From positions 1 to 41,222 of the forward strand of contig CACWKD010000011.1 in assembly GCA_902761345.1 (NCBI GenBank): DNA of 41,222 bases. Direction: 5' to 3'. The translations under genes and the position numbers were made by a program. Each line of letters begins with the position of its first letter. Positions within the stretch are counted from its first letter, which is position 1. The stretch is from an uncultured Ruminococcus sp. (GTDB lineage: Bacteria; Bacillota; Clostridia; Oscillospirales; Acutalibacteraceae). Shown one piece after another: positions 2,004 to 37,438 of the stretch. The notes below the pieces were generated by a model, which was not told the DNA's origin, made no database searches, and saw only the letters and a list, made by a program, of their open reading frames with translations.

Positions 2004-2075
2004 ATAATTATAAAATGTTGATTTAGCTGTATTTGTGATAGTGAAGTAAAAAAATTGTATATTAGGATGGTTTGT

Positions 2076-2750
2076 ATGTATAGGATATTGTTAGTTGAGG
2101 ACGATGAAAATATTCAAACTTTGATTTATAATTATTTTACAAAGAAAGAAACAGACGCTTTTACAGTCGAGATAGCCGCAGACGGAGAAACAGGACTTGA
2201 AAAAGCGTATGAGAACCGTTACGATTTATTACTGCTGGATATTATGTTGCCTGAGTTAGACGGTTTTGCCATTTGCAGGGAAATAAGAAAAGAAAGCGAT
2301 GTGCCTATTATTTTTATTACTGCAAGGGCGAACGAAACAGATATTCTTAACGGTTATGCAATTGGCTGTGACGATTATGTAGTCAAGCCGTTTCCACTGC
2401 CTGTTCTGTATCAGAAAGTGAACGCTCTGATAAAACGCTCCAAAGGATTGGTACGTTCAAAGATATTCAGCGCGGGAAATCTGTCGCTAAACCCCAATAA
2501 CGGTATGGTTATATGTTCAGGTCAGGAGATAAAGCTAACGGCAAAGGAGTATGCGATATTAAAAGTATTGCTCGAAAACAAAGGAATGATAATAAGCCGT
2601 GACAGATTAATTGATATAGTATGGGGCTATAACAGTGGTACAGACGAAAGAGTACTTGATACTCATATGAGAAACCTAAGAAAAGCATTGGGTGCAAACG
2701 GCAAACAAATAAAGACGGCGATCAGACGAGGATATAAGATAGAGGATTAG
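2076..2750 (+). CDS. OmpR/PhoB-family response regulator
   Basis: A 224-residue DNA-binding response regulator. The receiver domain (about residues 1-115) has the acidic pocket D9/D10, phosphoacceptor D55 (LLLLDIMLPELDGF), the T/A position ITAR and K104 (VVKPF). The C-terminal winged helix (about 125-224) has LTAKEYAILKVLLENKG and the typical RVLDTHMRNLRKAL recognition helix. The frame opens with a TTG at 2055 and an ATG at 2067. I prefer ATG 2076 because the AGGATGG ribosome site at 2064-2070 lies six bases upstream and MYRILLVEDDE is the canonical family start. It forms an operon with the kinase that starts four bases after its stop. Targets are unknown; the adjacent sugar cluster is the obvious candidate. 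Confidence 0.93.
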   Translation: MYRILLVEDDENIQTLIYNYFTKKETDAFTVEIAADGETGLEKAYENRYDLLLLDIMLPELDGFAICREIRKESDVPIIFITARANETDILNGYAIGCDDYVVKPFPLPVLYQKVNALIKRSKGLVRSKIFSAGNLSLNPNNGMVICSGQEIKLTAKEYAILKVLLENKGMIISRDRLIDIVWGYNSGTDERVLDTHMRNLRKALGANGKQIKTAIRRGYKIED

Positions 2751-2753
2751 TGA

Positions 2754-4415
2754 ATGGAAGCTAAACTAAAAAAACAGAAAAAGAGACTGCTTTTGCGTGT
2801 AGTGCTGATTTTGTTTGCAGTATGGATATCAGTATCAGCGGCGTTCTGTACTATATTACTTTACAGCGAAAAAAACAAAGTACAAAATAACGAGCTTGCA
2901 AATTTATCATATGAAGAGCAGCAGATATCCGAGGCAACACACTCCTATAATTATTATGAATATGTTTATAATAGCTTGACTGATTTTCTGTATTTTAATA
3001 ATAGTACAAAAAGGAATTGGAATGCTCAGGTTATTTTGATTGACACAGAAAGCCAAGAGACTGTTGTAAATACAGATAAGAAAATTATAGTAAACTATGG
3101 TTTTAAAGCAAGAGCAGACGCACCGTCAAGCACTTACTGTTTTCTTGACTATGATACAGTTCGTAATTCTCTGAACATAGAACAGCGTGAAATGATTACG
3201 AAGTGGCTTAAGACAAAGCGAGATGATGAAAAAAGCTATGAATTGATATGTACTGAATTTCAAATATGGTATGAAAATATTATTCCTCTGGAACTGCAAA
3301 TTGTCCTTACCGGAAATGAAAAAAGCTGGTTTATATCAGATGAAGTTATAGAAACAATTAGCTTGGAAAAAAACATAATTTCAGATGAAGATGTCTATGT
3401 CTGTAATGAAATGCAGCGAAATATTATACCAAAAGATTTTTTTCTCAGCGAACTTGGAACAAACGATTTGATAAGCCTGCTTACACCCGAACAGCAAAAC
3501 AGTACAGCAGAAATGGTACGGATAAGTATGTTTGAATATGTTTTTTATACATCAGATTACATATCTTATTATGATGAGTTTTATAATAACGATTTTACAG
3601 GTTTAAACGAAAGCCCCATATTACTTATTATAAAATATGCAAAGAAAATTGATATGTGGGAGATATGCAAGACAAAGCTTGCAGTCGGAGTATCTTTGAT
3701 ATTTGTTTTCTTTTTGATAATTGCACTAATAATGTATTTTATGATATGGAAAATGATTAAAACCCAGGCATTACAGGAACAGAACCGTATTGACCTTACC
3801 AATGCACTTGCGCACGATATTAAAACGCCGCTGTTTGTTATAAGCGGTTATGCGTATAGCTTGAAAGAGAATATTGACGAAGAAGAGCGTGATACATATT
3901 TAGAGAAAATTATAGAACAAACAGATAGGATCAATGATATGGTGCATAAAATGCTTGATCTCAGCAAGCTTAGTTCCTATAATATGACGTTAAACCGTAC
4001 TGATTTTAATTTGTCTGAGTTGGTTAAAGAAATACTTGACGATTATACAGTGCTGCCCGACGGAAAGGTTATTTTGGAGAAGTTTAGCGGAGAATGTACA
4101 GTAAACGCAGATAAAGACCTAATCAGAACAGCCCTGCAAAATCTTATTGATAACGCTGTAAACTATTCTCTGCCTGAAACAGAAATAAATATCGAAATTA
4201 TTGATAAGACTGTAAAGGTTTCAAATCAGAGCGAACCGCTTACAAAAGCAGACCTCAAACAAATATGGCATCCGTATGTTCGCAAGGACAAGAGCCGACA
4301 TAAAAAGGGAAACGGCTTGGGACTTTCAATCGTAAAATCAATCTTTGATCTACACGGTGTAAAATGCGAGTTGAATATGAAAGATACAACATTTATATGT
4401 AGTGTTTTGTTTTGA
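2754..4415 (+). CDS. Sensor histidine kinase
   Basis: A 553-residue membrane kinase, partner of the preceding regulator. A membrane segment near residues 13-33 and another near 305-332 bracket an extracellular region of about 270 residues that matches no sensor domain I recognise. The cytoplasmic part has the H-box with phospho-accepting H354 (ALAHDIKTPL), the N-box NLIDNAVNYS and the G-box KGNGLGLSIV. No HAMP domain is evident between the second membrane segment and the H-box; only a short linker is present. The large private sensor region suggests an envelope or small-molecule signal, which is inference. ATG follows the regulator's TAG by three bases. Confidence 0.93.
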   Translation: MEAKLKKQKKRLLLRVVLILFAVWISVSAAFCTILLYSEKNKVQNNELANLSYEEQQISEATHSYNYYEYVYNSLTDFLYFNNSTKRNWNAQVILIDTESQETVVNTDKKIIVNYGFKARADAPSSTYCFLDYDTVRNSLNIEQREMITKWLKTKRDDEKSYELICTEFQIWYENIIPLELQIVLTGNEKSWFISDEVIETISLEKNIISDEDVYVCNEMQRNIIPKDFFLSELGTNDLISLLTPEQQNSTAEMVRISMFEYVFYTSDYISYYDEFYNNDFTGLNESPILLIIKYAKKIDMWEICKTKLAVGVSLIFVFFLIIALIMYFMIWKMIKTQALQEQNRIDLTNALAHDIKTPLFVISGYAYSLKENIDEEERDTYLEKIIEQTDRINDMVHKMLDLSKLSSYNMTLNRTDFNLSELVKEILDDYTVLPDGKVILEKFSGECTVNADKDLIRTALQNLIDNAVNYSLPETEINIEIIDKTVKVSNQSEPLTKADLKQIWHPYVRKDKSRHKKGNGLGLSIVKSIFDLHGVKCELNMKDTTFICSVLF

Positions 4416-4565: not shown

Positions 4566-5696
4566 ATGATACCCTTTAATACCCCTCCTTTTGTGGGAAA
4601 AGAACTCGACTATATGAAACAGGCGATAGAGTCTAAAAAAATTTGCGGCGACGGAGAGTTTACAAAAAAGTGTCACAGATTACTCGAACAGCAGACGGGC
4701 TGCGAAAAGGTTCTGCTGACAACATCGTGTAGTCATGCACTTGAAATGGCTGCGTTGCTAACTGAGATAAAGCCGGGTGACGAGGTTATCATGCCGTCAT
4801 ATACATTTGTATCCACAGCTAATGCTTTTGTACTGAGAGGTGCAGTTATAGTATTTGTAGATATTCGTCCCGATACGATGAATATTGACGAAACCCTTAT
4901 AGAGGACGCAATCACTTCAAAAACAAAAGCGATCGTTCCTGTTCATTATGCAGGAGTTGGCTGCGAAATGGACAAGATTACAGAAATTGCAAAAAAACAC
5001 AATTTGCTTGTAGTTGAGGACGCCGCACAGGGTGTAATGGCATACTATAAAGATCGTGCTCTTGGAACTATCGGAGATGTTGGCTGCTATTCCTTCCATG
5101 AAACAAAGAATTACAGTATGGGAGAGGGCGGCGCTGTTCTTGTAAATAATAGAGAAATGCATGAGCGTTCTGAAATTGTTCGTGAAAAGGGAACTAACCG
5201 CAGTCGTTTTCTCAGAGGACAGATAGACAAATATACCTGGGTAGATGTAGGCTCATCATATCTTCCAAGTGATATGAATGCGGCATATCTTTATGCGCAG
5301 CTTGAAATGGCAGAAGAGATCAATAATAATCGTCTTGCGTCATGGAACAAGTATTATGAAGCATTTGAGGAACTTGAAGAAAACGGTCTTGTACAGCGGC
5401 CGTTTATTCCTGATGAGTGCCGTCACAATGCGCATATGTTTTATCTTAAAGTGCGTGACATAGAGCAGCGAAGCGAGCTTATTGCTTACCTGAAAACAAA
5501 AGGGGTAGCTGCTGTGTTTCACTATATACCTCTTCATTCTGCTCAGGCGGGTCTTCGTTTCGGACGTTTCCACGGAGAGGATAAATATACAACTAAGGAG
5601 AGCGAGCGTTTGCTGCGTATTCCTATGTATTATGGTCTTACAGATAAAGAAATTAATTATGTTGTTGAAAGCGTTTACAGCTTTTTCAAAAGGTGA
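4566..5696 (+). CDS. wecE: dTDP-4-amino-4,6-dideoxygalactose transaminase
   Basis: A PLP-dependent DegT/DnrJ/EryC1/StrS aminotransferase, 376 aa. It closely matches E. coli WecE/RffA as I remember it, from the N-terminus (MIPFNTPP.VG.ELDYM) through GDEVIMPSYTFVSTANAFVLRGA and RPDTMNIDETLIE to FHGEDKYTTKESERLLR. The Schiff-base lysine is K181 in SFHETKNY. The expected reaction is dTDP-4-keto-6-deoxy-D-glucose plus glutamate to dTDP-4-amino-4,6-dideoxy-D-galactose (dTDP-Fuc4N) plus 2-oxoglutarate. The substrate is the product of RmlA and RmlB, encoded 3 kb downstream in the same cluster. The closeness to WecE makes this isomer more likely than the perosamine or viosamine types. Confidence 0.93.
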   Translation: MIPFNTPPFVGKELDYMKQAIESKKICGDGEFTKKCHRLLEQQTGCEKVLLTTSCSHALEMAALLTEIKPGDEVIMPSYTFVSTANAFVLRGAVIVFVDIRPDTMNIDETLIEDAITSKTKAIVPVHYAGVGCEMDKITEIAKKHNLLVVEDAAQGVMAYYKDRALGTIGDVGCYSFHETKNYSMGEGGAVLVNNREMHERSEIVREKGTNRSRFLRGQIDKYTWVDVGSSYLPSDMNAAYLYAQLEMAEEINNNRLASWNKYYEAFEELEENGLVQRPFIPDECRHNAHMFYLKVRDIEQRSELIAYLKTKGVAAVFHYIPLHSAQAGLRFGRFHGEDKYTTKESERLLRIPMYYGLTDKEINYVVESVYSFFKR

Positions 5697-5726
5697 ACTC
5701 AGATAAATAACAAACGGGGGTTATAA

Positions 5727-6254
5727 ATGGAGAACAGAGTTAGTATCAGAAAAATAACAGAAGAAGATACCGATAATATTATAAAATGGCGTAACAGTCC
5801 CGATGTTAATATCAATTTTATATATCGCCGCCCCTTAACAAGGGAAGATCATCTGAGTTGGCTTCACAATAAGGTTGATAAGGGCGAGGTTGCACAGTTT
5901 ATAATACATTCCGATGAATTGGAAAAAGATGTAGGTTCGGTATATCTCCGAGATATAGATTACAATTATCAAAAAGCAGAGTATGGTATCTTTATAGGCG
6001 AGGAGACTGCAAGAGGACATGGAATAGGAGCGGCAGCAGGAAAGCTTATACTCGAATATGGGTTTGAAGTGCTGAACCTTAACAGGATCTTTCTCAGAGT
6101 ATTTGCCCGCAACGAGCGTGCTATTAATTCGTACAAGAAAGCAGGCTTTGTGTATGAGGGATTGTTCCGCCAAGATGTAATTATTGACGGAGTTAAAGAA
6201 GACGTAGTTTTTATGTCGATACTGCGTGAAGATTACGAAAAATCAAAAGTTTAA
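5727..6254 (+). CDS. GNAT N-acetyltransferase, probable dTDP-Fuc4N acetyltransferase
   Basis: A 175-residue RimJ/RimL-type (Acetyltransf_3) GNAT protein. The acetyl-CoA loop is ETARGHGIGAAAGKLIL near residues 93-109, followed by the NLNRIFLRVFARNERAINSYKKAGF stretch in two halves that forms the CoA-side helix and strand. It sits 30 bases after wecE, with GGGGG ahead of its ATG. Position and family suggest that it acetylates the 4-amino group of dTDP-Fuc4N, the job WecD/RffC does in enterobacteria. It is not an obvious WecD orthologue in length or N-terminus, so the assignment rests on context; another amino-sugar substrate is possible. Confidence 0.82.
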   Translation: MENRVSIRKITEEDTDNIIKWRNSPDVNINFIYRRPLTREDHLSWLHNKVDKGEVAQFIIHSDELEKDVGSVYLRDIDYNYQKAEYGIFIGEETARGHGIGAAAGKLILEYGFEVLNLNRIFLRVFARNERAINSYKKAGFVYEGLFRQDVIIDGVKEDVVFMSILREDYEKSKV

Positions 6255-6278
6255 TATATACAGGTGGTTTTAAAAATT

Positions 6279-7250
6279 ATGAAAACAAAGCTTTCTTTTG
6301 TAATACCTTGTTACCGTTCTGAAAAAACTATCGGCATAGTTGTAGACGAGATCAGAAACACAGTTAATACAAGAAAAGAACTTTACGATTATGAGATAAT
6401 TCTTGTCAGCGATCATTCTCCCGATGATGTTTTTTCGGTTATCGAGGAACTTGCAAAAAAAGATAAACGCATATTGGGAATAGAGCTTGCAAAAAATTTC
6501 GGTCAGCATTCGGCTATTCTTGCAGGATTTCGTCATGTTACAGGAGATATTATTGTATGTATGGACGATGACGGTCAAACTCCACCTAATCAGATGTTTA
6601 AGCTTATAGACAGTCTTGATGATGAGTGTGACGTTGCGTTTGCACGATATGAGAGCAAAAAACATTCGCCGTTCAGAAATTTTGGCAGTCATATTAATGA
6701 TCTTATGGCACGTTACTTGATAGACAAGCCGAAAGAACTTAAGATTATGAGCTACTTTGCCTGCAAGCGTTATGTTGTTGATGAAGTAGTACGTTATGAT
6801 AACCCCTATCCTTATATGTCCGGACTGTTGCTTCGTACTACAAAGAATATAAAGAATGTTACAATTAAACATCGTGACCGTATAGAGGGCGAGTCGGGAT
6901 ATAAGTTTGGCAAGCTGATCAGTTTGTGGGTCAATGGATTTACGTCTTTTTCAGTAAAACCTCTGCGTGCGGCAACTGTTGTAGGCGCAACAAGCTCAGT
7001 GATTGGATTTATCTATGGAATTTATATTATTATAAATAAGCTGATAAACCCCTTAACGCCGCTCGGATACAGTTCAATGATGGCAGTTTTCCTTTTTATT
7101 GGCGGTATAATAATGATAATGCTTGGAATAATCGGCGAGTATGTAGGTCGAATATATATATGTTTGAACGAGGCACCACAGTATGTAATTCGCCGCAAGG
7201 TGTCTTTTCCCGATAATAATGATGGAGCAGATAAGAAAAATGACAGATAA
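6279..7250 (+). CDS. GT2 polyprenyl-phosphate glycosyltransferase (GtrB/ArnC/CsbB-like)
   Basis: A family-2 glycosyltransferase of 323 aa. The GT-A domain has the N-terminal SFVIPCYRSEKT strand, LVSDHSPDD and the metal-site MDDDGQTPP (aspartates near residues 92-94). Two membrane helices at the C-terminus (about 225-260 and 265-295) are typical of GtrB, ArnC, CsbB and DPM1-type enzymes, which load a sugar on undecaprenyl phosphate at the cytoplasmic face. The frame has a GTG at 6264, but ATG 6279 gives the family start and follows an AGGTGG site. Two SMR-like genes directly follow, the arrangement seen for carrier-lipid flippases, so the predicted product is polyprenyl-phosphate-Fuc4NAc. The sugar identity is inferred. 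Confidence 0.88.
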   Translation: MKTKLSFVIPCYRSEKTIGIVVDEIRNTVNTRKELYDYEIILVSDHSPDDVFSVIEELAKKDKRILGIELAKNFGQHSAILAGFRHVTGDIIVCMDDDGQTPPNQMFKLIDSLDDECDVAFARYESKKHSPFRNFGSHINDLMARYLIDKPKELKIMSYFACKRYVVDEVVRYDNPYPYMSGLLLRTTKNIKNVTIKHRDRIEGESGYKFGKLISLWVNGFTSFSVKPLRAATVVGATSSVIGFIYGIYIIINKLINPLTPLGYSSMMAVFLFIGGIIMIMLGIIGEYVGRIYICLNEAPQYVIRRKVSFPDNNDGADKKNDR

Positions 7251-7596
7251 GAAAAAAAGTTCTAATATAAAAAGCTTAATATTTCTACACATAATATTGC
7301 TTATTTATGTAGGCAGCAGCGTTATGTCAAAGTTAGCGTCGGGACAGCAGTTTTTATCATTTAAATTTATCTTGATGTACGGGGGCGTAGTATTGCTTTT
7401 GATGGTATATGCTGTTTTATGGCAGCAGGTACTGAAACGGCTGCCGCTAACAGTTGCGTTTGCAAATAAATCAGCGGTAATGATATGGGGAATGATAATT
7501 GGTGCGATAATGTGGCATGAGAAGATCACATGGCTGATGATAGCAGGAACAATTATAATAGTTATAGGAGTATGTCTGGTGGTGATGGAGGATTAA
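7240..7596 (+). CDS. SMR/EamA-like small membrane protein 1 (putative lipid-sugar flippase half)
   Basis: A four-helix hydrophobic protein of 118 aa with the fold pattern of EmrE, ArnE and ArnF: helices near residues 12-30, 40-60, 68-88 and 94-114. It has a conserved-type LPLTVAFAN loop and an MWHEKITW turn before the last helix. Upstream in-frame ATGs at 7219 and 7222 exist, but GGAG at 7224-7227 favours ATG 7240, which overlaps the glycosyltransferase end by 11 bases. Together with the next gene it resembles the ArnE/ArnF pair that flips undecaprenyl-phosphate-aminoarabinose. Role in flipping polyprenyl-P-sugar is inference from position; a drug-efflux role cannot be excluded by sequence alone. 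Confidence 0.78.
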   Translation: MTDKKKSSNIKSLIFLHIILLIYVGSSVMSKLASGQQFLSFKFILMYGGVVLLLMVYAVLWQQVLKRLPLTVAFANKSAVMIWGMIIGAIMWHEKITWLMIAGTIIIVIGVCLVVMED

Positions 7597-7966
7597 TCTT
7601 TCGGTTGTTTTTATATTTATATTTTTAGGATCGGTTTTTCTTTCATCAATATCGCAGGTAATATTAAAAAAGAGTGCGAATGAGAAACACGAGAGTCTGA
7701 TAAAAGAATATTTGAATGTACGAGTAATAACAGCGTATGCAATGTTTTTTGCGTCAACGATAATTACGGTATTTGCCTATAAGTATGTGCCGTTATCGTT
7801 AGGACCCGTACTCGAATCGTGCGGATATGTCTTTGTAGCAGTATTATCATATATTTTTCTGAAAGAGCGTCTAAAAAAGAAACAGATAATAGGTCTTGTA
7901 CTTATCACTGTCGGAGTTTTGATAGTTTCTTTCGGACGATATTTTAAGCAAATTGCCGAAGAATAA
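7592..7966 (+). CDS. SMR/EamA-like small membrane protein 2, start codon non-canonical
   Basis: The second SMR-like gene. The first standard start in frame is TTG 7712, which would give only 84 residues and lose helix 1. The frame is open from 7586, and 7598-7711 encodes a convincing first helix ([20 protein letters not shown]) and an ILKKSANEK loop, so the full four-helix protein of about 124 aa begins near ATT 7592. That codon overlaps the TAA of the preceding gene, as ATG does in coupled genes, with GGTGG nine bases upstream. Either ATT is used as a rare start, or an ATG was lost by mutation or sequencing error. The 3' end abuts rmlA abnormally (see that entry). Proposed partner of SMR1 in a heterodimeric flippase. 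Confidence 0.65.
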
Positions 7967-8813
7967 AGGCACACGTCTTTATCCCATGACTAAGGTTGTG
8001 TCTAAACAGCTTCTTCCGATTTACGACAAACCGCTTATATATTATCCGTTGTCGGTTTTAATGCTTGCAGGAATAAATGATATTCTTATAATATCGACGC
8101 CTAACGATATTTCGCTGTATAAAAAGCTTTTTGAAGATGGAAGCCGACTTGGTATCTCTGTAAGCTATGCCGTACAGCCCGAACCGAAAGGCTTAGCTGA
8201 AGCTTTTATAATAGGCGAAGAGTTTATCGGAGATGATTCGGTATGCTTGATACTTGGAGATAACGTGTTTTTCGGACAGTATTTTACAGATATTCTGGAG
8301 AAAACAAAGAGAGAGTTAAACGGTGCCGCAATATTTGGTTATGTGGTAAAAAATCCTAAAGAATTTGGTATCGTTGAGTTCGACAAAGATAATAATGTTA
8401 TTTCGATTGAAGAAAAGCCTAAGAAACCAAAGTCGAATTATGCAGTACCGGGTCTTTATTTTTATGATAATCAGGTAGTAGAGATAGCGAAAACAATAGA
8501 GCCGTCTGCAAGAGGGGAACTTGAGATTACAGCGGTAAACAACGCCTATCTTGAAAAAGGAATGCTCAAAGTATCTCTGCTTGGCAGAGGAATGGCGTGG
8601 CTTGATACGGGTACACCGTCGGGAATGATGAAAGCATCTCAGTTTGTAGAGAATGTTCAATCAAGACAGGGATTTTATGTTTGCTGTCCCGAAGAGGTAG
8701 CTTGGAGAAAAGGGTTTATTACAACTAAGCAGCTTGTTGATATCGGGCAGGAGCTTTCGATGACAGAGTACGGACAGTATTTGCTTTCACTTTCCGAAGA
8801 GAATATCGGTTAA
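7953..8813 (+). CDS. rmlA: Glucose-1-phosphate thymidylyltransferase, 5' end damaged
   Basis: RmlA makes dTDP-glucose from glucose-1-phosphate and dTTP. From [17 protein letters not shown] onward the protein is a near-perfect family match, including [40 protein letters not shown] and [10 protein letters not shown]. The family N-terminus, M-K-G-I-I-L-A-G-G-x-G-T-R-L, is missing. The frame runs back through L-P-K-N-K before GTRLYP, with a stop at 7923-7925 and no ATG. Only a weak TTG at 7953 is available, inside the SMR2 gene. The Gly-Gly of the dTTP-binding loop is thus lost. This looks like a small deletion joining the SMR2 end to about codon 10 of rmlA, or an assembly fault. As written, activity is doubtful. 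The remaining 3' end is complete. Confidence 0.85.
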
Positions 8814-8834
8814 TTAAGAGGAGTTTTTTGTAAT

Positions 8835-9887
8835 ATGAAAAATGTATTAGTTACAGGCGGAGCAGGGTTTATCGGTTCTAATTTTGTAAATTATATGCTT
8901 GATAATACAGACGCATTTATAGTAAATCTTGACGTGCTAACATACGCAGGAAATCTTGAAAATCTCAAAGATATAGAAGATAATAAAAATTATCGTTTTG
9001 TAAAGGGAGATATTAGAGATAAGGATCTTGTTGCTCAAATTTTTACAGAATATGATATTGACACCGTTGTAAATTTTGCAGCAGAATCGCACGTTGACAG
9101 GAGTATAGTTGAGCCGGAGATTTTTCTCACAACAAATGTAATAGGAACACAAGTACTTTTAAATGCGGCTAAGCAGCGCTGGAATCTCAGACCCGATGAT
9201 AAATATTCAAGAGAGTATAGAGCCGGTGTAAAATATCTTCAGGTATCTACTGATGAAGTGTATGGAGCACTTGGCAAGACAGGTATGTTTACAGAGGAAA
9301 CGCCGCTTTCCCCGAACTCACCTTACTCTGTTTCAAAGGCGAGTGCAGATATGCTTGTAAAAGCATATAACAACACATTCGGACTGCCTGTTGTGATTAC
9401 ACGCTGTTCTAATAACTACGGACCGTACCAGTTTCCGGAGAAACTAATTCCTCTTATGATAAACAACTGTTTAAACGATAAGCCGCTTCCTGTATATGGT
9501 GACGGTATGCAGATAAGGGATTGGCTTCATGTAAAGGATCACTGCAGTGCGATCGCAACAGTTCTTCAAAATGGCAGAATTGGGGAAGTATATAACATTG
9601 GCGGTAATAACGAGAAAGCCAATATAGAAATAGTTAAGCTTATTATCGGTACAATGGACAAGTCAGAAGGTCTGATTACTTATGTTAAGGATCGTCCGGG
9701 TCATGACCGCCGTTATGCGATTGACAATACAAAAATTACAAGTGAGCTTGGCTGGTCACCGTCATATACTTTTGAGCAGGGTATAGCTGAAACGATCGAG
9801 TGGTTTTTGAGTCACCGTGAATGGATAGATAAGATTATTTCAGGCGATTATCTCAGTTACTACGATAAGATGTATAGCATTGATTAA
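8835..9887 (+). CDS. rmlB: dTDP-glucose 4,6-dehydratase
   Basis: An extended short-chain dehydrogenase/reductase of 350 aa with NAD-binding GGAGFIGSNF at residues 8-17, STDEVYG with its catalytic threonine/aspartate, and the active-site YSVSKASAD (Tyr, Lys). Further matches are NNYGPYQFPEKLIPL, RDWLHVKDHC and RPGHDRRYAID. It converts dTDP-glucose to dTDP-4-keto-6-deoxyglucose, the substrate for WecE. It lies 21 bases after rmlA with a GAGGAG site. rmlC and rmlD are absent here, so the keto-sugar is more likely to go to an amino-sugar than to rhamnose. Confidence 0.96.
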   Translation: MKNVLVTGGAGFIGSNFVNYMLDNTDAFIVNLDVLTYAGNLENLKDIEDNKNYRFVKGDIRDKDLVAQIFTEYDIDTVVNFAAESHVDRSIVEPEIFLTTNVIGTQVLLNAAKQRWNLRPDDKYSREYRAGVKYLQVSTDEVYGALGKTGMFTEETPLSPNSPYSVSKASADMLVKAYNNTFGLPVVITRCSNNYGPYQFPEKLIPLMINNCLNDKPLPVYGDGMQIRDWLHVKDHCSAIATVLQNGRIGEVYNIGGNNEKANIEIVKLIIGTMDKSEGLITYVKDRPGHDRRYAIDNTKITSELGWSPSYTFEQGIAETIEWFLSHREWIDKIISGDYLSYYDKMYSID

Positions 9888-25707: not shown

Positions 25708-27366
25708 TTATTCTTTATTTGTTTGTTTTTCCTTAACCTTTTTTTCTAAAGGTATACGTCTGATAATACCCTCACTAAGTGCGATGAAAAGGAACAGGAA
25801 CGGTGTTACGATCGGAGTGAACAGGCTAAACATAGACTGAGCGCAATATGAGATGATAACAAGTGTAGTAATGAGTGCGCCGATTGAATATTCAAATCTT
25901 CTCATACCCTTTACAACAACAGAGACAAGTACAGTTACATAAGAGAGAAGTCCCAAAGCGCCGATAGTTACGAGGTAAGTGAGAAACTCGTTGTGTGCGC
26001 TGTCGAACACACTGCCGTGACGTTTTATCATATCCTCACGGTAGTATTTTTTCATAACTTGTCCGAATGTATCCGGTCCCGAACCGACAAGCATATTTTT
26101 GATACCGTTAGTTTTAAACAGAATTACACTTCTGATCCAAGCGTAACCTCTGTGTGTACCCCATTTATCATTAAGACGAAGATAATTTGATAATTTGCCA
26201 AGATCGGTGGTTGTGTCAATAGCGCTGAAATATACAAACAGACCGATTACCGATAAAACGGATAATGCAACTAAAGAGGCTACAGTGATCTGAACTGCTT
26301 TTGGTGAGGGTCTATCGTTGTATTTCTTCTGAATAAAATAAAACAAAACTGAAAGACCGCCGAATACAGCAATGAGAATATATATTTTATTATTGAAGAT
26401 GAGGGTTTTTGGGATAGTATCAAGACGCTTATAATTATCTTTAAATACCAGTGAGAGTAATCTGAAAATCTTACACGATAGAAGCATAAGGAAAACACAG
26501 AATACAAACTTAAACATTCTCTGAGCATTTTTGCATGAATATACGAACAGTATAGACATAAATGCTGCAAGTCCAACATATCCGCTGTCACTGTTTGCAA
26601 CAAGTAATCCCATAAATGAAATGCATACTCCTATACTATAAAAAACGGTGGATGGAATATCCTTAGAGGTGACGAGCAAAGCTGCTATAACGGGCATAGA
26701 AACACATATAAAGCATGAGAAGATATTAATGTTTCCAAAAGTAGAAATAAAAATCGTTTGCTGGCTTTCAGCTATTTCTGTAAGCAAATTAAACGGATCA
26801 ATATAGAACTCATGCAGAATAGCGATTATAACTACAATAGCCGAGGATACGACAAAAATATCATAAGGAAGCTTGTGATATTTGTAATACCTTGAAACTA
26901 CAAAATAGCACAATACATATCCTGCCATAATTATCAAACCGCTGTCACGTCCCTCAGAGCCTGTAACAGCTTCCATACCGTATTCAGATAAAGCTGTAGA
27001 GATGACGCTTACGATCAAAAAGCACAACATTCCAATATCTTCAACAGTTGGCTTGAAAATGTTTTTTACCCACTTCTTTTTATCAATACCACAAAGATAG
27101 GTGGCAATAACAAAGAAAAGAAGAACGATTGTAGTTCCTACGAAGTAGTGAAGTCTGTCTTTTCTGAGATTGAAAAGTTTATCAGTCATAAATACAGGGA
27201 ACAGTGTAAACATTCCTATTACATACAGATTGGTAAACTTTTCGTGCATAGAGAGAGTATCGTTAAGTGTCGGTGCATATGATGATTTTGTTTTCTTGAC
27301 TTCGCTTTTTTTGCCGGTTGAAGCATTTGAGTTGTTTTCTTTATTTGAACTTTTGTTTTTACTCAC
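25708..27366 (-). CDS. O-antigen ligase / Wzy-polymerase-like membrane protein
   Basis: A 552-residue membrane protein with about 12 hydrophobic segments after a charged, Ser/Lys/Asn-rich cytosolic N-terminus of about 45 residues. The large extracytoplasmic loop and hallmark SVFDSAHNEFLTYLVTIGALGLL (in parts: SAHNEFLTYLVTIG, residues about 460-475) fit the Wzy_C/O-antigen ligase family, which joins glycans from a polyprenyl carrier. GTG 27366 is the start, with GGAGG eight bases upstream, overlapping the ruvX stop as GTGA. In Firmicutes such proteins serve capsule, teichuronic acid or protein glycosylation. Substrate unknown. Confidence 0.85.
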   Translation of the reverse strand: MSKNKSSNKENNSNASTGKKSEVKKTKSSYAPTLNDTLSMHEKFTNLYVIGMFTLFPVFMTDKLFNLRKDRLHYFVGTTIVLLFFVIATYLCGIDKKKWVKNIFKPTVEDIGMLCFLIVSVISTALSEYGMEAVTGSEGRDSGLIIMAGYVLCYFVVSRYYKYHKLPYDIFVVSSAIVVIIAILHEFYIDPFNLLTEIAESQQTIFISTFGNINIFSCFICVSMPVIAALLVTSKDIPSTVFYSIGVCISFMGLLVANSDSGYVGLAAFMSILFVYSCKNAQRMFKFVFCVFLMLLSCKIFRLLSLVFKDNYKRLDTIPKTLIFNNKIYILIAVFGGLSVLFYFIQKKYNDRPSPKAVQITVASLVALSVLSVIGLFVYFSAIDTTTDLGKLSNYLRLNDKWGTHRGYAWIRSVILFKTNGIKNMLVGSGPDTFGQVMKKYYREDMIKRHGSVFDSAHNEFLTYLVTIGALGLLSYVTVLVSVVVKGMRRFEYSIGALITTLVIISYCAQSMFSLFTPIVTPFLFLFIALSEGIIRRIPLEKKVKEKQTNKE

Positions 27367-34284: not shown

Positions 34285-34348
34285 ATACTTATACTTTTTA
34301 AATAGAGTTAAAATTTTGTGTAATGTGTTTAATGTAACGGAGGAAACT

Positions 34349-37300
34349 ATGAAAGCGATATTTAAAAAAATAGTAAGTATGGTTCTTTCAGCTACGGTAA
34401 TAGGCTCGGGCTTTTCTGTAATGCAGGCAGGTGCAGAACAGTCTGATTACCCTGAAGAATACATATTGGGAGATGTTAATTGTGACAAAAAAATCTCTCT
34501 TAAAGATGCGTCACTGATTCAAAGGGCACTTTTGTCATTAGAGGATATAAACGAAGTGCAATATATGCTTGCCTGTGTTGACGGAAGTGAGTTTTTATCG
34601 CTAAAGGACGCATTTATTATACAGAGATATGCTTTGAACATAATTGATGAATATGCGGTGAATTCAAAAGGAAAAATTATCGGAGATACTATTTATTTTG
34701 ATACAGACAGCGATACGGAAAGTGACAATATTAACACAGAAAGCGACACTGCAGCGGATACCGAAACAGATACAGTTACAGATAGTGAAACCGATTCGGC
34801 AACAGATACTGCAACGGATAGCGAAATTGATACAGTAACTGATACTGCAGAGGATAGTGAAATCAATACTGAAACTGACAACACAACAGATAGTACAATT
34901 GATACAGTAACGGATAGCGAGAGTGAAACCGACAGTGCACTTTCAGATACAGACACAGCCGACACTGAAAATGAAAAGGGCTGCAAAGCTACTTTTAAAT
35001 GTACAAATACCGATGCGATCATTTATTATACAAGAGATTTCACAGACGGAGTATTAGCCGCTGACGAAGATGTCTATGCAAGAAACGGAGTAACGGGTCA
35101 TATAGACAGTACAGGAGAGGGTGAAATAAACTTCGAGCTGTACAATCACGGAATGATGATAGTTACCGAAATCAAAATTGAAGGCGAGTATTCTGAGCTT
35201 ATTACTGTTGACAAAGATAATTTCCGTTACAGAATAACAGGTGTTAAGAGCGATCTTACAATAAATGCAGAAGGTTTCTATGGCGGTTTAATCGAAACAG
35301 ATACCGAAAGTGAAGAAGACACAGACAGTGTAGAACCTTATGATATATTGCCTATGGAAGATATACAGTATATGCTTGACGGTAATTTTGAAAGAGGAAC
35401 ACAGTTAGGAGATACATGGAAGCAAGGACTGCGAACAAAGAGCGACAGTGTAGTTATTGAGAGCGGTTCACGCACAGATGGTTCAAAATGTTTGAAGCTT
35501 ACTACTACGAGTGATTATGCTACATTTGCATACAACAGTTTGCATGGCTTGAAGCCTGAACATACATATAAGCTAACCGTAAAGGCATGGGGTAACGTAT
35601 CGGAGTGTGACGAGCATCATAACGGAATTTATCTGAATGTTGGACAGCTTTCAGGTTTGGGTGCTCCGTATGTTGATGAAAACGGAAAATCAATTAGCGG
35701 TTGGGGTGCATACTTTGATTGCTATAACAACTGGATACAGAAAGATTGTGATGTCACAACAATTACAGTATATTTTGAATCAACAAGCAGAGGTCTTGCA
35801 GATATAGAGTGTGTTTTGTGGGGCAAGGGTACAGCGTACTTTGATGATATGACGATTGAAGAAGTTGATTATGACAGCGAGCCTCGTGACAAAACAAGAG
35901 TAATGACTGAAAACATAGGACTTGTACTTATGAACAGCGATGTAGAGGGACTTACAGTTGAACAAATGCAGGAATGGTGCGAGGACGTAGAGTGGAGCTA
36001 TCAGAAGATGAATGACCTTATGGGAGTGGCTCCTTATAAGGGTGACAGAATTTATCTTATATCTGTCTACGAGCCGTATATGACAGGATTCCAGGCACTC
36101 AGCGGAAACAGAGTTATCAAGTGGAGAGGCGATTACATGGGACCTGCCTGTGTTAGATTCTGTACAGAGGGAATATGGTCTGACGTAGCGTATCATGAGA
36201 TAGGACATCTGTATGATTTCCTTGAAGAATATCAGTGGTGTTATTACAGCTCGGAAATGGGAGCGGAATTCAGAAAACTTTATTGTCTGCTTGAGCATGG
36301 AGAAGGCAAATTTAAGAACCACGGTTGGGGTATGGAGCTTGCATACGACCAGTTATATGAATACACAAAGAGTATAAGCGGAGAATGCTATGATAAAACA
36401 ATAGCTGTAAGAAGCGGAACAATGCATTACGATAATATGAATTACGTTCTTACAAGAGCTGTCAATGCAGTTGGCTGGGATATAGCAAGAGATACTTTCC
36501 ACGGCTTTGCAAAATATTATGATCCACGCTACAATACAGGCAGAGCAAAGTTTGAGTATTTGATGATGTCTTTGCAGAGAAGTTATAATAAGAAACACCC
36601 CGAAGCAACAGGTTCTGAAGTTTATGATACATTCCCGCAGGGTGAGTTTGATTATATAGGACAGCTTATGAACCCAACCTCTGCCGAAGGAGAAAAAATA
36701 TGTAAGGTACAGTTTATGGATCCCGATGGACAGAAACTGTGGTTTGAGTTTGTACCTGAGGGAGAGGGGGCAAATCCGCCTCAACAGTCAGCGTCCGAAA
36801 AGTACGGTGCATTTACAGGCTGGGATATGGATATAACAAACATAACGTCCGATATGGTGGTAACTGCACAGTATGAGAACTACAAACCGTTTGGTTCAGC
36901 GTCTGTTACAACAGGCAGTGAAACAATATATGAGGGTGAATATGCGACTGTAAAAATTGACGTACCGGAATCAGGCACATACAAGTACAATATAATCTGT
37001 ATGAGCGGATCAGATACGATTTTTGAGAGCGGGTATACAGACAGCAATACAGCAAGTTTCCTTTTAAGCAAATCAGGCAGCTATGTAGTTTACGCTAAGG
37101 TAAAGACTGCCGATGGAACAGAGTATAACACACAGAAAAAACAGTTCAGTGCAGAGAGAGCGGTTGTTGTTTATTATAGTGGATACTCCTCACCGAATAT
37201 ACATTATAAGGTAGGTTCGGGTACATGGACAACGCCTCCGGGAGTAAAGATGACGCCAAACAGCGATGTCTCCGGATATTCATTTAAATATGTAATACCT

Positions 37301-37438
37301 CTTGACGCAAAGAGTTCTATAGTAAAATGCTGCTTTAACGATGGCAATAATAATTGGGATAACAACGGTGAAAAGGATTACAGCTTGTCAGAAGGTGCAG
37401 TAGGTGTAAAGAACGGTGTAGTTACACAGCTGCAATAA
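34349..37438 (+). CDS. Secreted dockerin / gluzincin metalloprotease / CBM25-like protein
   Basis: A 1029-residue extracellular protein. The signal peptide ends near residue 29. A type-I-like dockerin (41-97) has one good calcium loop (D42, N44, D46, S50, D53) and one degenerate loop. A 90-residue Asp/Thr/Ser/Glu-rich linker (118-209) follows. Two beta domains come next, the second with the look of a CBM4/9-type module (MLDGNFERGTQ... YFDDMTIEEV). A gluzincin-type protease carries HEIGH at 616-620 with a candidate third ligand at E636 or E640, M60-like in pattern. After an InlB-like repeat, residues 936-1029 resemble a CBM25 starch-binding module (CCFNDGNNNWDNNGEKDY). The frame opens at TTG 34316, but ATG 34349 has GGAGG. 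It would bind a cohesin on an amylosome-type complex. Protease subfamily is uncertain. Confidence 0.88.
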   Translation: MKAIFKKIVSMVLSATVIGSGFSVMQAGAEQSDYPEEYILGDVNCDKKISLKDASLIQRALLSLEDINEVQYMLACVDGSEFLSLKDAFIIQRYALNIIDEYAVNSKGKIIGDTIYFDTDSDTESDNINTESDTAADTETDTVTDSETDSATDTATDSEIDTVTDTAEDSEINTETDNTTDSTIDTVTDSESETDSALSDTDTADTENEKGCKATFKCTNTDAIIYYTRDFTDGVLAADEDVYARNGVTGHIDSTGEGEINFELYNHGMMIVTEIKIEGEYSELITVDKDNFRYRITGVKSDLTINAEGFYGGLIETDTESEEDTDSVEPYDILPMEDIQYMLDGNFERGTQLGDTWKQGLRTKSDSVVIESGSRTDGSKCLKLTTTSDYATFAYNSLHGLKPEHTYKLTVKAWGNVSECDEHHNGIYLNVGQLSGLGAPYVDENGKSISGWGAYFDCYNNWIQKDCDVTTITVYFESTSRGLADIECVLWGKGTAYFDDMTIEEVDYDSEPRDKTRVMTENIGLVLMNSDVEGLTVEQMQEWCEDVEWSYQKMNDLMGVAPYKGDRIYLISVYEPYMTGFQALSGNRVIKWRGDYMGPACVRFCTEGIWSDVAYHEIGHLYDFLEEYQWCYYSSEMGAEFRKLYCLLEHGEGKFKNHGWGMELAYDQLYEYTKSISGECYDKTIAVRSGTMHYDNMNYVLTRAVNAVGWDIARDTFHGFAKYYDPRYNTGRAKFEYLMMSLQRSYNKKHPEATGSEVYDTFPQGEFDYIGQLMNPTSAEGEKICKVQFMDPDGQKLWFEFVPEGEGANPPQQSASEKYGAFTGWDMDITNITSDMVVTAQYENYKPFGSASVTTGSETIYEGEYATVKIDVPESGTYKYNIICMSGSDTIFESGYTDSNTASFLLSKSGSYVVYAKVKTADGTEYNTQKKQFSAERAVVVYYSGYSSPNIHYKVGSGTWTTPPGVKMTPNSDVSGYSFKYVIPLDAKSSIVKCCFNDGNNNWDNNGEKDYSLSEGAVGVKNGVVTQLQ

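Follow-up and report, generated by a model that had tools for sequence, protein, structure and literature searches.

In the Arn system of Escherichia coli (ArnC-ArnE/F-ArnT), formyl chemistry is carried out by ArnA and ArnD, and a 4-amino sugar is handled by a membrane glycosyltransferase of family GT2 (ArnC), a pair of small multidrug resistance (SMR)-like half-transporters, and a GT-C glycosyltransferase. Three-component systems of Gram-positive bacteria, such as CsbB-GtcA-YfhO and GtlA-GtcA-GtlB, are built in a related way, with a membrane GT2 that makes a lipid-phosphate-linked sugar, a small flippase, and an outside GT-C (PMC8035078). In the available part of that review, the sugars of Table 1 are galactose, glucose, and N-acetylglucosamine (with two entries unknown), the flippases are of GtrA or Wzx type, and the term SMR is absent from the main text. 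SMR transporters, with ArnE/ArnF as the example, already form a third class of transporters of lipid intermediates in the accessible text of PMC7389260, and three-component systems for pentofuranoses, as far as PMC11127046 could be consulted, combine a lipid-phosphate-linked sugar, a small exporter related to EmrE and ArnE, and a GT-C. Here we analyze a contig of 41,222 nucleotides (CACWKD010000011.1, assembly GCA_902761345.1) from an uncultured Ruminococcus sp. of the class Clostridia; the window is the entire contig, and the draft genome comprises 2.09 Mb in 99 contigs and is 89% complete. Seven genes at 4566-9887 probably represent a transmembrane glycosylation cassette for 4-acetamido-4,6-dideoxygalactose (Fuc4NAc), covering synthesis, lipid charging, and flipping; outside transfer would fall to a further enzyme, for which relatives carry a candidate gene.

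An open reading frame (ORF) scan and family profiles placed these genes, tightly packed and all on the plus strand, in the order WecE, GNAT, ArnC-like GT2, SMR1, SMR2, RmlA, and RmlB; every gene named in a first-pass annotation of the DNA (WecE, GNAT, GT2, two half-transporters, RmlA, and RmlB) was recovered by its family profile. In the proposed pathway, RmlA and RmlB would make dTDP-4-keto-6-deoxyglucose, which WecE would aminate at C4 to yield dTDP-Fuc4N (the free amino form), and the GNAT protein would acetylate N-4 to give dTDP-Fuc4NAc. Undecaprenyl phosphate would then be charged with Fuc4NAc by the ArnC-like GT2, and SMR1 and SMR2 together would flip the lipid-linked sugar across the membrane. 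Outside, a GT-C-like enzyme would pass it to an acceptor; in relatives, the gene for this enzyme stands between SMR2 and rmlA. We infer each reaction from the protein families; the lipid carrier, the flipping, the GT-C activity, and the acceptor are likewise predicted. The cassette itself contains no polymer genes, and a Gram-positive surface polymer may serve as the acceptor.

WecE (4566-5696), the predicted dTDP-4-keto-6-deoxyglucose 4-aminotransferase and maker of dTDP-Fuc4N, scored far above the cut-offs of both models for its family (NF008687: 656.6 bits, cut-off 375, over protein positions 1-374, the whole length; TIGR02379: 653.6 bits, cut-off 434.85). It shares 66% identity with E. coli WecE, and a PDB search returned the WecE-type entries 4PIW (569 bits) and 6BLG (559 bits), with the next aminotransferase at 168 bits. 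The first-pass identification of WecE is thus upheld, and from this family identity Fuc4N is its likely product. RmlB (8835-9887), the dTDP-glucose 4,6-dehydratase, also passed its cut-off (TIGR01181: 506.5 bits, cut-off 365.1).

The GNAT N-acetyltransferase (5727-6254; Acetyltransf_3, 73 bits), the predicted enzyme for N-4 acetylation of dTDP-Fuc4N, did not match E. coli WecD significantly (BLASTP: E = 0.27); it reached 89.6 bits with the PseH model TIGR03585, below the cut-off of 93.1, and among solved structures spermidine acetyltransferases of SpeG type come closest. By these sequence comparisons, the acetyltransferase of the cassette is not WecD, with PseH/SpeG-type GNATs nearest. The "WecE/WecD logic" proposed at first pass therefore holds by function at most. 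The cassette shares the functions of RmlA, RmlB, and WecE with the enterobacterial common antigen branch (RffH/RffG/WecE/WecD) and differs from it in having a nonorthologous acetyltransferase; WecA, WecB, WecC, WecF, WzxE, and WzyE, which neighbor that branch, are not among the seven genes.

The membrane GT2 (6264-7250, with a possible start by eye at ATG 6279; PF00535), predicted to charge undecaprenyl phosphate, has ArnC structures as its best PDB matches (9HWJ, 9BHC, and 8VXH), followed by sll0501 (5EKP) and DPMS, and is 30% identical to E. coli ArnC across 315 columns, in agreement with the GtrB/ArnC-like GT2 first annotated here. It supplies the GT2 component (ArnC/GtrB/DPMS type) of multi-component transmembrane glycosylation systems, and such ArnC-like proteins are rare in the genome (three full-length matches in 2.09 Mb). 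The scores of the cassette proteins are below the Arn equivalog cut-offs (ArnB: 201 vs. 631 bits; ArnC: 167 vs. 529; ArnE: 25 vs. 92). Relative to Arn, the cassette would use dTDP-Fuc4N made by WecE in place of UDP-4-amino-4-deoxyarabinose made by ArnA and ArnB, and it has a GNAT where Arn has the formyl chemistry.

SMR1 (7219-7596; EamA, 36 bits) is an EamA/ArnE-like half-transporter and the first of the putative flippase pair, its 25 bits with the ArnE model falling under the cut-off of 92. SMR2, the second half (about 7592-7966; EamA, 41 bits with the shorter ORF), was called by the ORF scan as 84 residues at 7712-7966, without the first helix; upstream, its frame stays open as far as about 7592, where there is no ATG, GTG, or TTG. 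The SMR2 tail past SFGR diverges from relatives, and aligned relatives end within about eight residues of that place. By eye, the frame has no ATG, GTG, or TTG before the first helix in any of the three same-genus genomes (window 7592-7600, L037, and L038). Translation of SMR2 may instead be coupled and begin at an unusual codon, a conserved ATT that overlaps the stop of SMR1 (ATTAA); relatives like L068 have ATG.

We then examined the surroundings of WecE in 80 loci, the best of at least 590 stretches encoding a WecE relative; being chosen as best matches, they lean toward close relatives. Neighbors were counted with profiles built in this analysis, up to 7 kb from WecE on either strand, and some loci are shortened by contig ends, 42 having 6 kb on both sides. 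GT2 was found in 48 loci, GNAT in 37, SMR2 in 24, SMR1 in 23, ATP-grasp in 17, GtrA and RmlB in 16 each, RmlA in 14, and the GT-C-like protein in 8. The gene-neighborhood check suggested with the first annotation returned the exact order WecE-GNAT-GT2-SMR1-SMR2 in 9 loci, two of which are those of the same-genus genomes G091 and G196; the three same-genus genomes compared (the window's own, G091, and G196) share this run. GNAT is closely associated with GT2, which is present in 32 of the 37 GNAT loci and in every one of the 20 whose sequence extends 6 kb to either side. Five loci (L089, L103, L112, L128, and L142) encode GNAT and GT2 as a single fused protein, with the Pfam domains confirmed in L103, a strong hint that both act in sequence. 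GNAT and ATP-grasp were never found together (0/80; Fisher's exact test ignoring kinship: P = 4e-6). On a GT2 tree without bootstrap, GNAT partnership required 3 changes vs. 13.6 in shuffles, a sign of clustering by partnership and nothing more; the profile scores that set GT2s with GNAT apart from those without are influenced by the model, whose seed contained many GNAT-type rows. The idea that the SMR pair and GtrA are exchangeable flippases was rejected, the exclusion being unsupported (3 of the 80 loci hold both; Fisher's exact test: P = 0.37).

The first-pass annotation had placed the GT-C outside the window; none of cassette type is indeed encoded there, so the cluster has no GT-C component of a multi-component transmembrane glycosylation system, but a candidate sits between SMR2 and RmlA in relatives (L067-L070 and L087), and in G196 it is seen beside SMR2 on one contig and beside RmlA on another. 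This is a membrane protein (MP484) of 483-492 residues in L067, L068, L069, L070, and L087. Its gene directly follows SMR2 in seven of the nine exact-order loci, with RmlA next in five; in L065 it follows SMR2 and no RmlA is seen up to the contig end. No Pfam family passed its cut-off in the two members scanned. An AlphaFold model built from eight sequences (mean predicted local distance difference test, pLDDT, 70.5; predicted template modeling score, pTM, 0.77) had as its top seven PDB matches chains of ALG12, EmbB, EmbA-EmbB, PglB (twice), EmbB, and ALG9, which we take to be GT-C folds. This weak fold likeness supports, without proving, a GT-C-like transferase. In L067 (11343-14268) the gene is present in two tandem copies, which could also trouble short-read assembly. 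The proposed search for an orphan GT-C in the window's own genome produced no clear partner: PF13231 occurs in four genes (C6, C7, C8, and C90, one of them PMT_2 by family scan), and none stands out, each staying a candidate. Used as queries, C6, C8, and C7 had best matches of 65-90% identity in both same-genus genomes, which also hold a relative at the level of C90 (itself not a query).

What is missing from the window is concentrated at a junction (7935-7967), where, by alignment with G091 and G196, the window lacks both the 5' end of rmlA and the GT-C gene seen in relatives. RmlA (7953-8813), the glucose-1-phosphate thymidylyltransferase, passes its model (TIGR01207: 444.9 bits, cut-off 360.65) only from model position 9; positions 1-8, including the GG of the nucleotide-binding glycine loop, are missing. 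The RmlA of relatives starts MKGIILAGGKGTRLYP or nearly so (MKGIILAGG), and the window has LPKN ahead of KGTRLYP, so that the loop, about the first nine residues, is gone. The RmlA/RmlB pair of the first-pass annotation is accordingly present with both members over their cut-offs, but one of them lacks its glycine loop. In G091, SMR2 directly adjoins an intact RmlA. In G196, one contig carries a response regulator, a histidine kinase, WecE, GNAT, GT2, SMR1, and SMR2 and ends inside a membrane protein, and a second starts inside a matching protein and continues with intact RmlA and RmlB; after RmlB this contig and the window share a VWA protein and, judged by eye, MetK and MurD. We infer that the two G196 contigs adjoin. 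The window may descend from a form like G196 by loss of the GT-C gene, or from one like G091 by a small deletion; misassembly fits either equally. Since this assembly lacks both the GT-C gene and the beginning of rmlA, the copy here may be nonfunctional or misassembled. We consider it a substantial possibility, falling short of an even chance, that the window carries a decayed copy, in which a real deletion took out the GT-C gene together with the start of rmlA (or that start alone, if the form was G091-like), leaving the pathway dead in this strain: no second RmlA exceeds the RmlA cut-off and no GT-C of cassette type is present in the draft genome. However, the other frames are open, WecE, GNAT, GT2, RmlA, and RmlB remain 89-94% identical to G196, the G196 contigs break inside the same gene, which hints at an assembly problem there, and the window itself belongs to a 99-contig draft that is 89% complete.

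Two other explanations concern what the cassette makes and what the SMR pair carries. That the pathway ends in another sugar through a different WecE product or GNAT substrate (such as Fuc4N left unacetylated or another 4-amino sugar), with the same lipid export, is unlikely: it would suit a GNAT that is not WecD and scores best, under the cut-off, with PseH, and an aminotransferase superfamily with many products, but WecE is far above the WecE cut-offs, and its scores with the two WecE-type PDB entries exceed those with every other solved aminotransferase listed by about 400 bits. It is highly improbable that the two SMR proteins form an ordinary exporter of drugs or guanidinium that lies here by chance, even with SMR2 scoring slightly better with the EbrA/EmrE models than with ArnF (all below cut-off) and one of the 24 SMR1 rows having glutamate at the EmrE position. 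At the position of EmrE Glu14 the window has Tyr in SMR1 and Ser in SMR2; counting the window, Tyr is found in 19 of the 24 SMR1 rows and Ser, Ala, or Thr in all 25 SMR2 rows. ArnE and ArnF likewise have no glutamate there, and its absence from both halves makes drug efflux unlikely. The EamA matches and the missing EmrE glutamate bear out the paired SMR-like halves of the first pass, which had held that drug efflux with no conservation beside the GT2 would speak against its reading. The loci do not show this: SMR1 and SMR2 are side by side in 23 of the 24 loci with SMR2, and 19 of the 24 hold a GT2. Lipid-sugar flipping is the role predicted from their genomic context.

Several observations weigh against a Fuc4NAc export cassette. 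No GT2 exceeded the threshold in 32 of the 80 WecE loci and no SMR2 lay within 7 kb in 56; among the 42 loci with 6 kb on either side, GNAT is present in 20, GT2 absent from 14, and SMR2 absent from 29. WecE alone, therefore, does not imply a lipid-export route. As top-scoring hits from a search for close relatives, the 80 loci are not a random sample. Tests that take phylogeny into account, run on 49 loci for GNAT/GT2 and for GNAT/ATP-grasp, yielded only two supported independent pairs and had no power, so the Fisher values stay uncorrected for kinship. The GNAT is below the PseH cut-off and closest, among solved structures, to spermidine acetyltransferases. The GT-C fold matches have E values of 0.06 to 0.95, none below 0.001, with TM-scores over the query of 0.23 to 0.42; the two PglB matches have probabilities below 0.3, and unrelated proteins appear from rank 8, at E values of 0.95 and above. 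Our own profile search found no GT-C-like gene in the window's genome or in G091. The pathway as a whole is a prediction built on families, gene order, conservation, the extra membrane-protein gene of relatives, and the GNAT-GT2 fusions.

The comparison of loci permits a wider, tentative reading, which we regard as possible and rather doubtful: across the Clostridia, Fuc4N made by WecE might be widespread as an amino sugar of the cell surface, with different enzymes able to take turns in modifying its N-4 group (acetyl by GNAT in one set of loci; aminoacyl or another acyl group by an ATP-grasp enzyme like an L-amino-acid ligase in another), the lipid-charging GT2 changing alongside, so that swapping of this module would diversify surface sugars. 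It is drawn from the lack of any locus shared by GNAT and ATP-grasp and from the ATP-grasp protein of L134, whose closest solved relatives are 4DIM, the L-amino-acid ligase 3VOT, and BacD. In L072 (10075-10746) and L116, a hexapeptide-repeat acyltransferase-like gene sits between GT2 and SMR1, where others have GNAT or ATP-grasp; this family occurs in four of the 80 loci, two of them also with ATP-grasp. Loci of Lachnospiraceae (L109, L127, L129, and others) have WecE between two large membrane proteins of about 590 and 620 residues, together with GNAT, GT2, and often GtrA, perhaps a related route with another flippase. Neither large protein of L103 matched a Pfam family; the one termed MP617, beside WecE, showed no profile similarity to the cassette GT-C, and its structural model was poor (pLDDT 58.5, pTM 0.47).

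Our search of open-licence papers, within the text available, found no description of WecE, GNAT, an ArnC-like GT2, an SMR pair, and a GT-C together. The comparison suggests that what is new is the combination of WecE with a dedicated acetyltransferase, an SMR pair, and a GT-C in one cassette; related architectures are already known. It differs from the Gram-positive three-component systems in its SMR pair and dedicated nucleotide amino-sugar pathway (PMC8035078, available part), and from the pentofuranose systems, which involve pentofuranoses, an epimerase step, and O-antigen acceptors (PMC11127046, accessible text). Fuc4N has been predicted in the capsule and on the flagellin of Clostridium butyricum, so it is not new to clostridia as a prediction; the clusters there resemble ours in having dTDP-Fuc4N genes in a clostridium, and these have a TagGH-like exporter or flagellin genes as neighbors, the available text mentioning no ArnC-SMR-GT-C cassette (PMC12342839, PMC13317340). 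In the accessible text of a 2020 survey of 12,939 genomes, Fuc4NAc was confined to Gammaproteobacteria (PMC7725333). Against this stand a full-score WecE in 35 of the 391 genomes sampled from the class Clostridia (among matches listed at E values up to 1e-120) and a WecE over the cut-off in 18 of 200 genomes of the window's family. Because the window GNAT is not WecD, a WecD-based search would presumably miss it (the GNATs of other loci were not compared with WecD). If the predicted chemistry is right, Clostridia of gut and rumen would have on their surface a sugar so far regarded as enterobacterial, and would export it through a small transporter pair of a type unnamed in the available part of the Gram-positive review (PMC8035078); Gram-positive wall decoration could be tested with an amino sugar easily tracked by mass.

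Outside the cassette, a response regulator and a histidine kinase lie directly upstream (2055-4415, plus strand); both are kept in G196 (92% and 74-75%), and none was seen in G091, where the neighbors of the cassette differ. Further along, a 1040-residue protein (34316-37438, plus strand) carries CBM25 at its C-terminus and, by eye and with no Pfam dockerin match, a dockerin-like stretch near its N-terminus. A 552-residue membrane protein (25708-27366, minus strand) matches Wzy_C (O-antigen ligase-like; 39.9 bits, cut-off 31.7) and may be encoded by a surface-glycan gene lying apart from the cassette.

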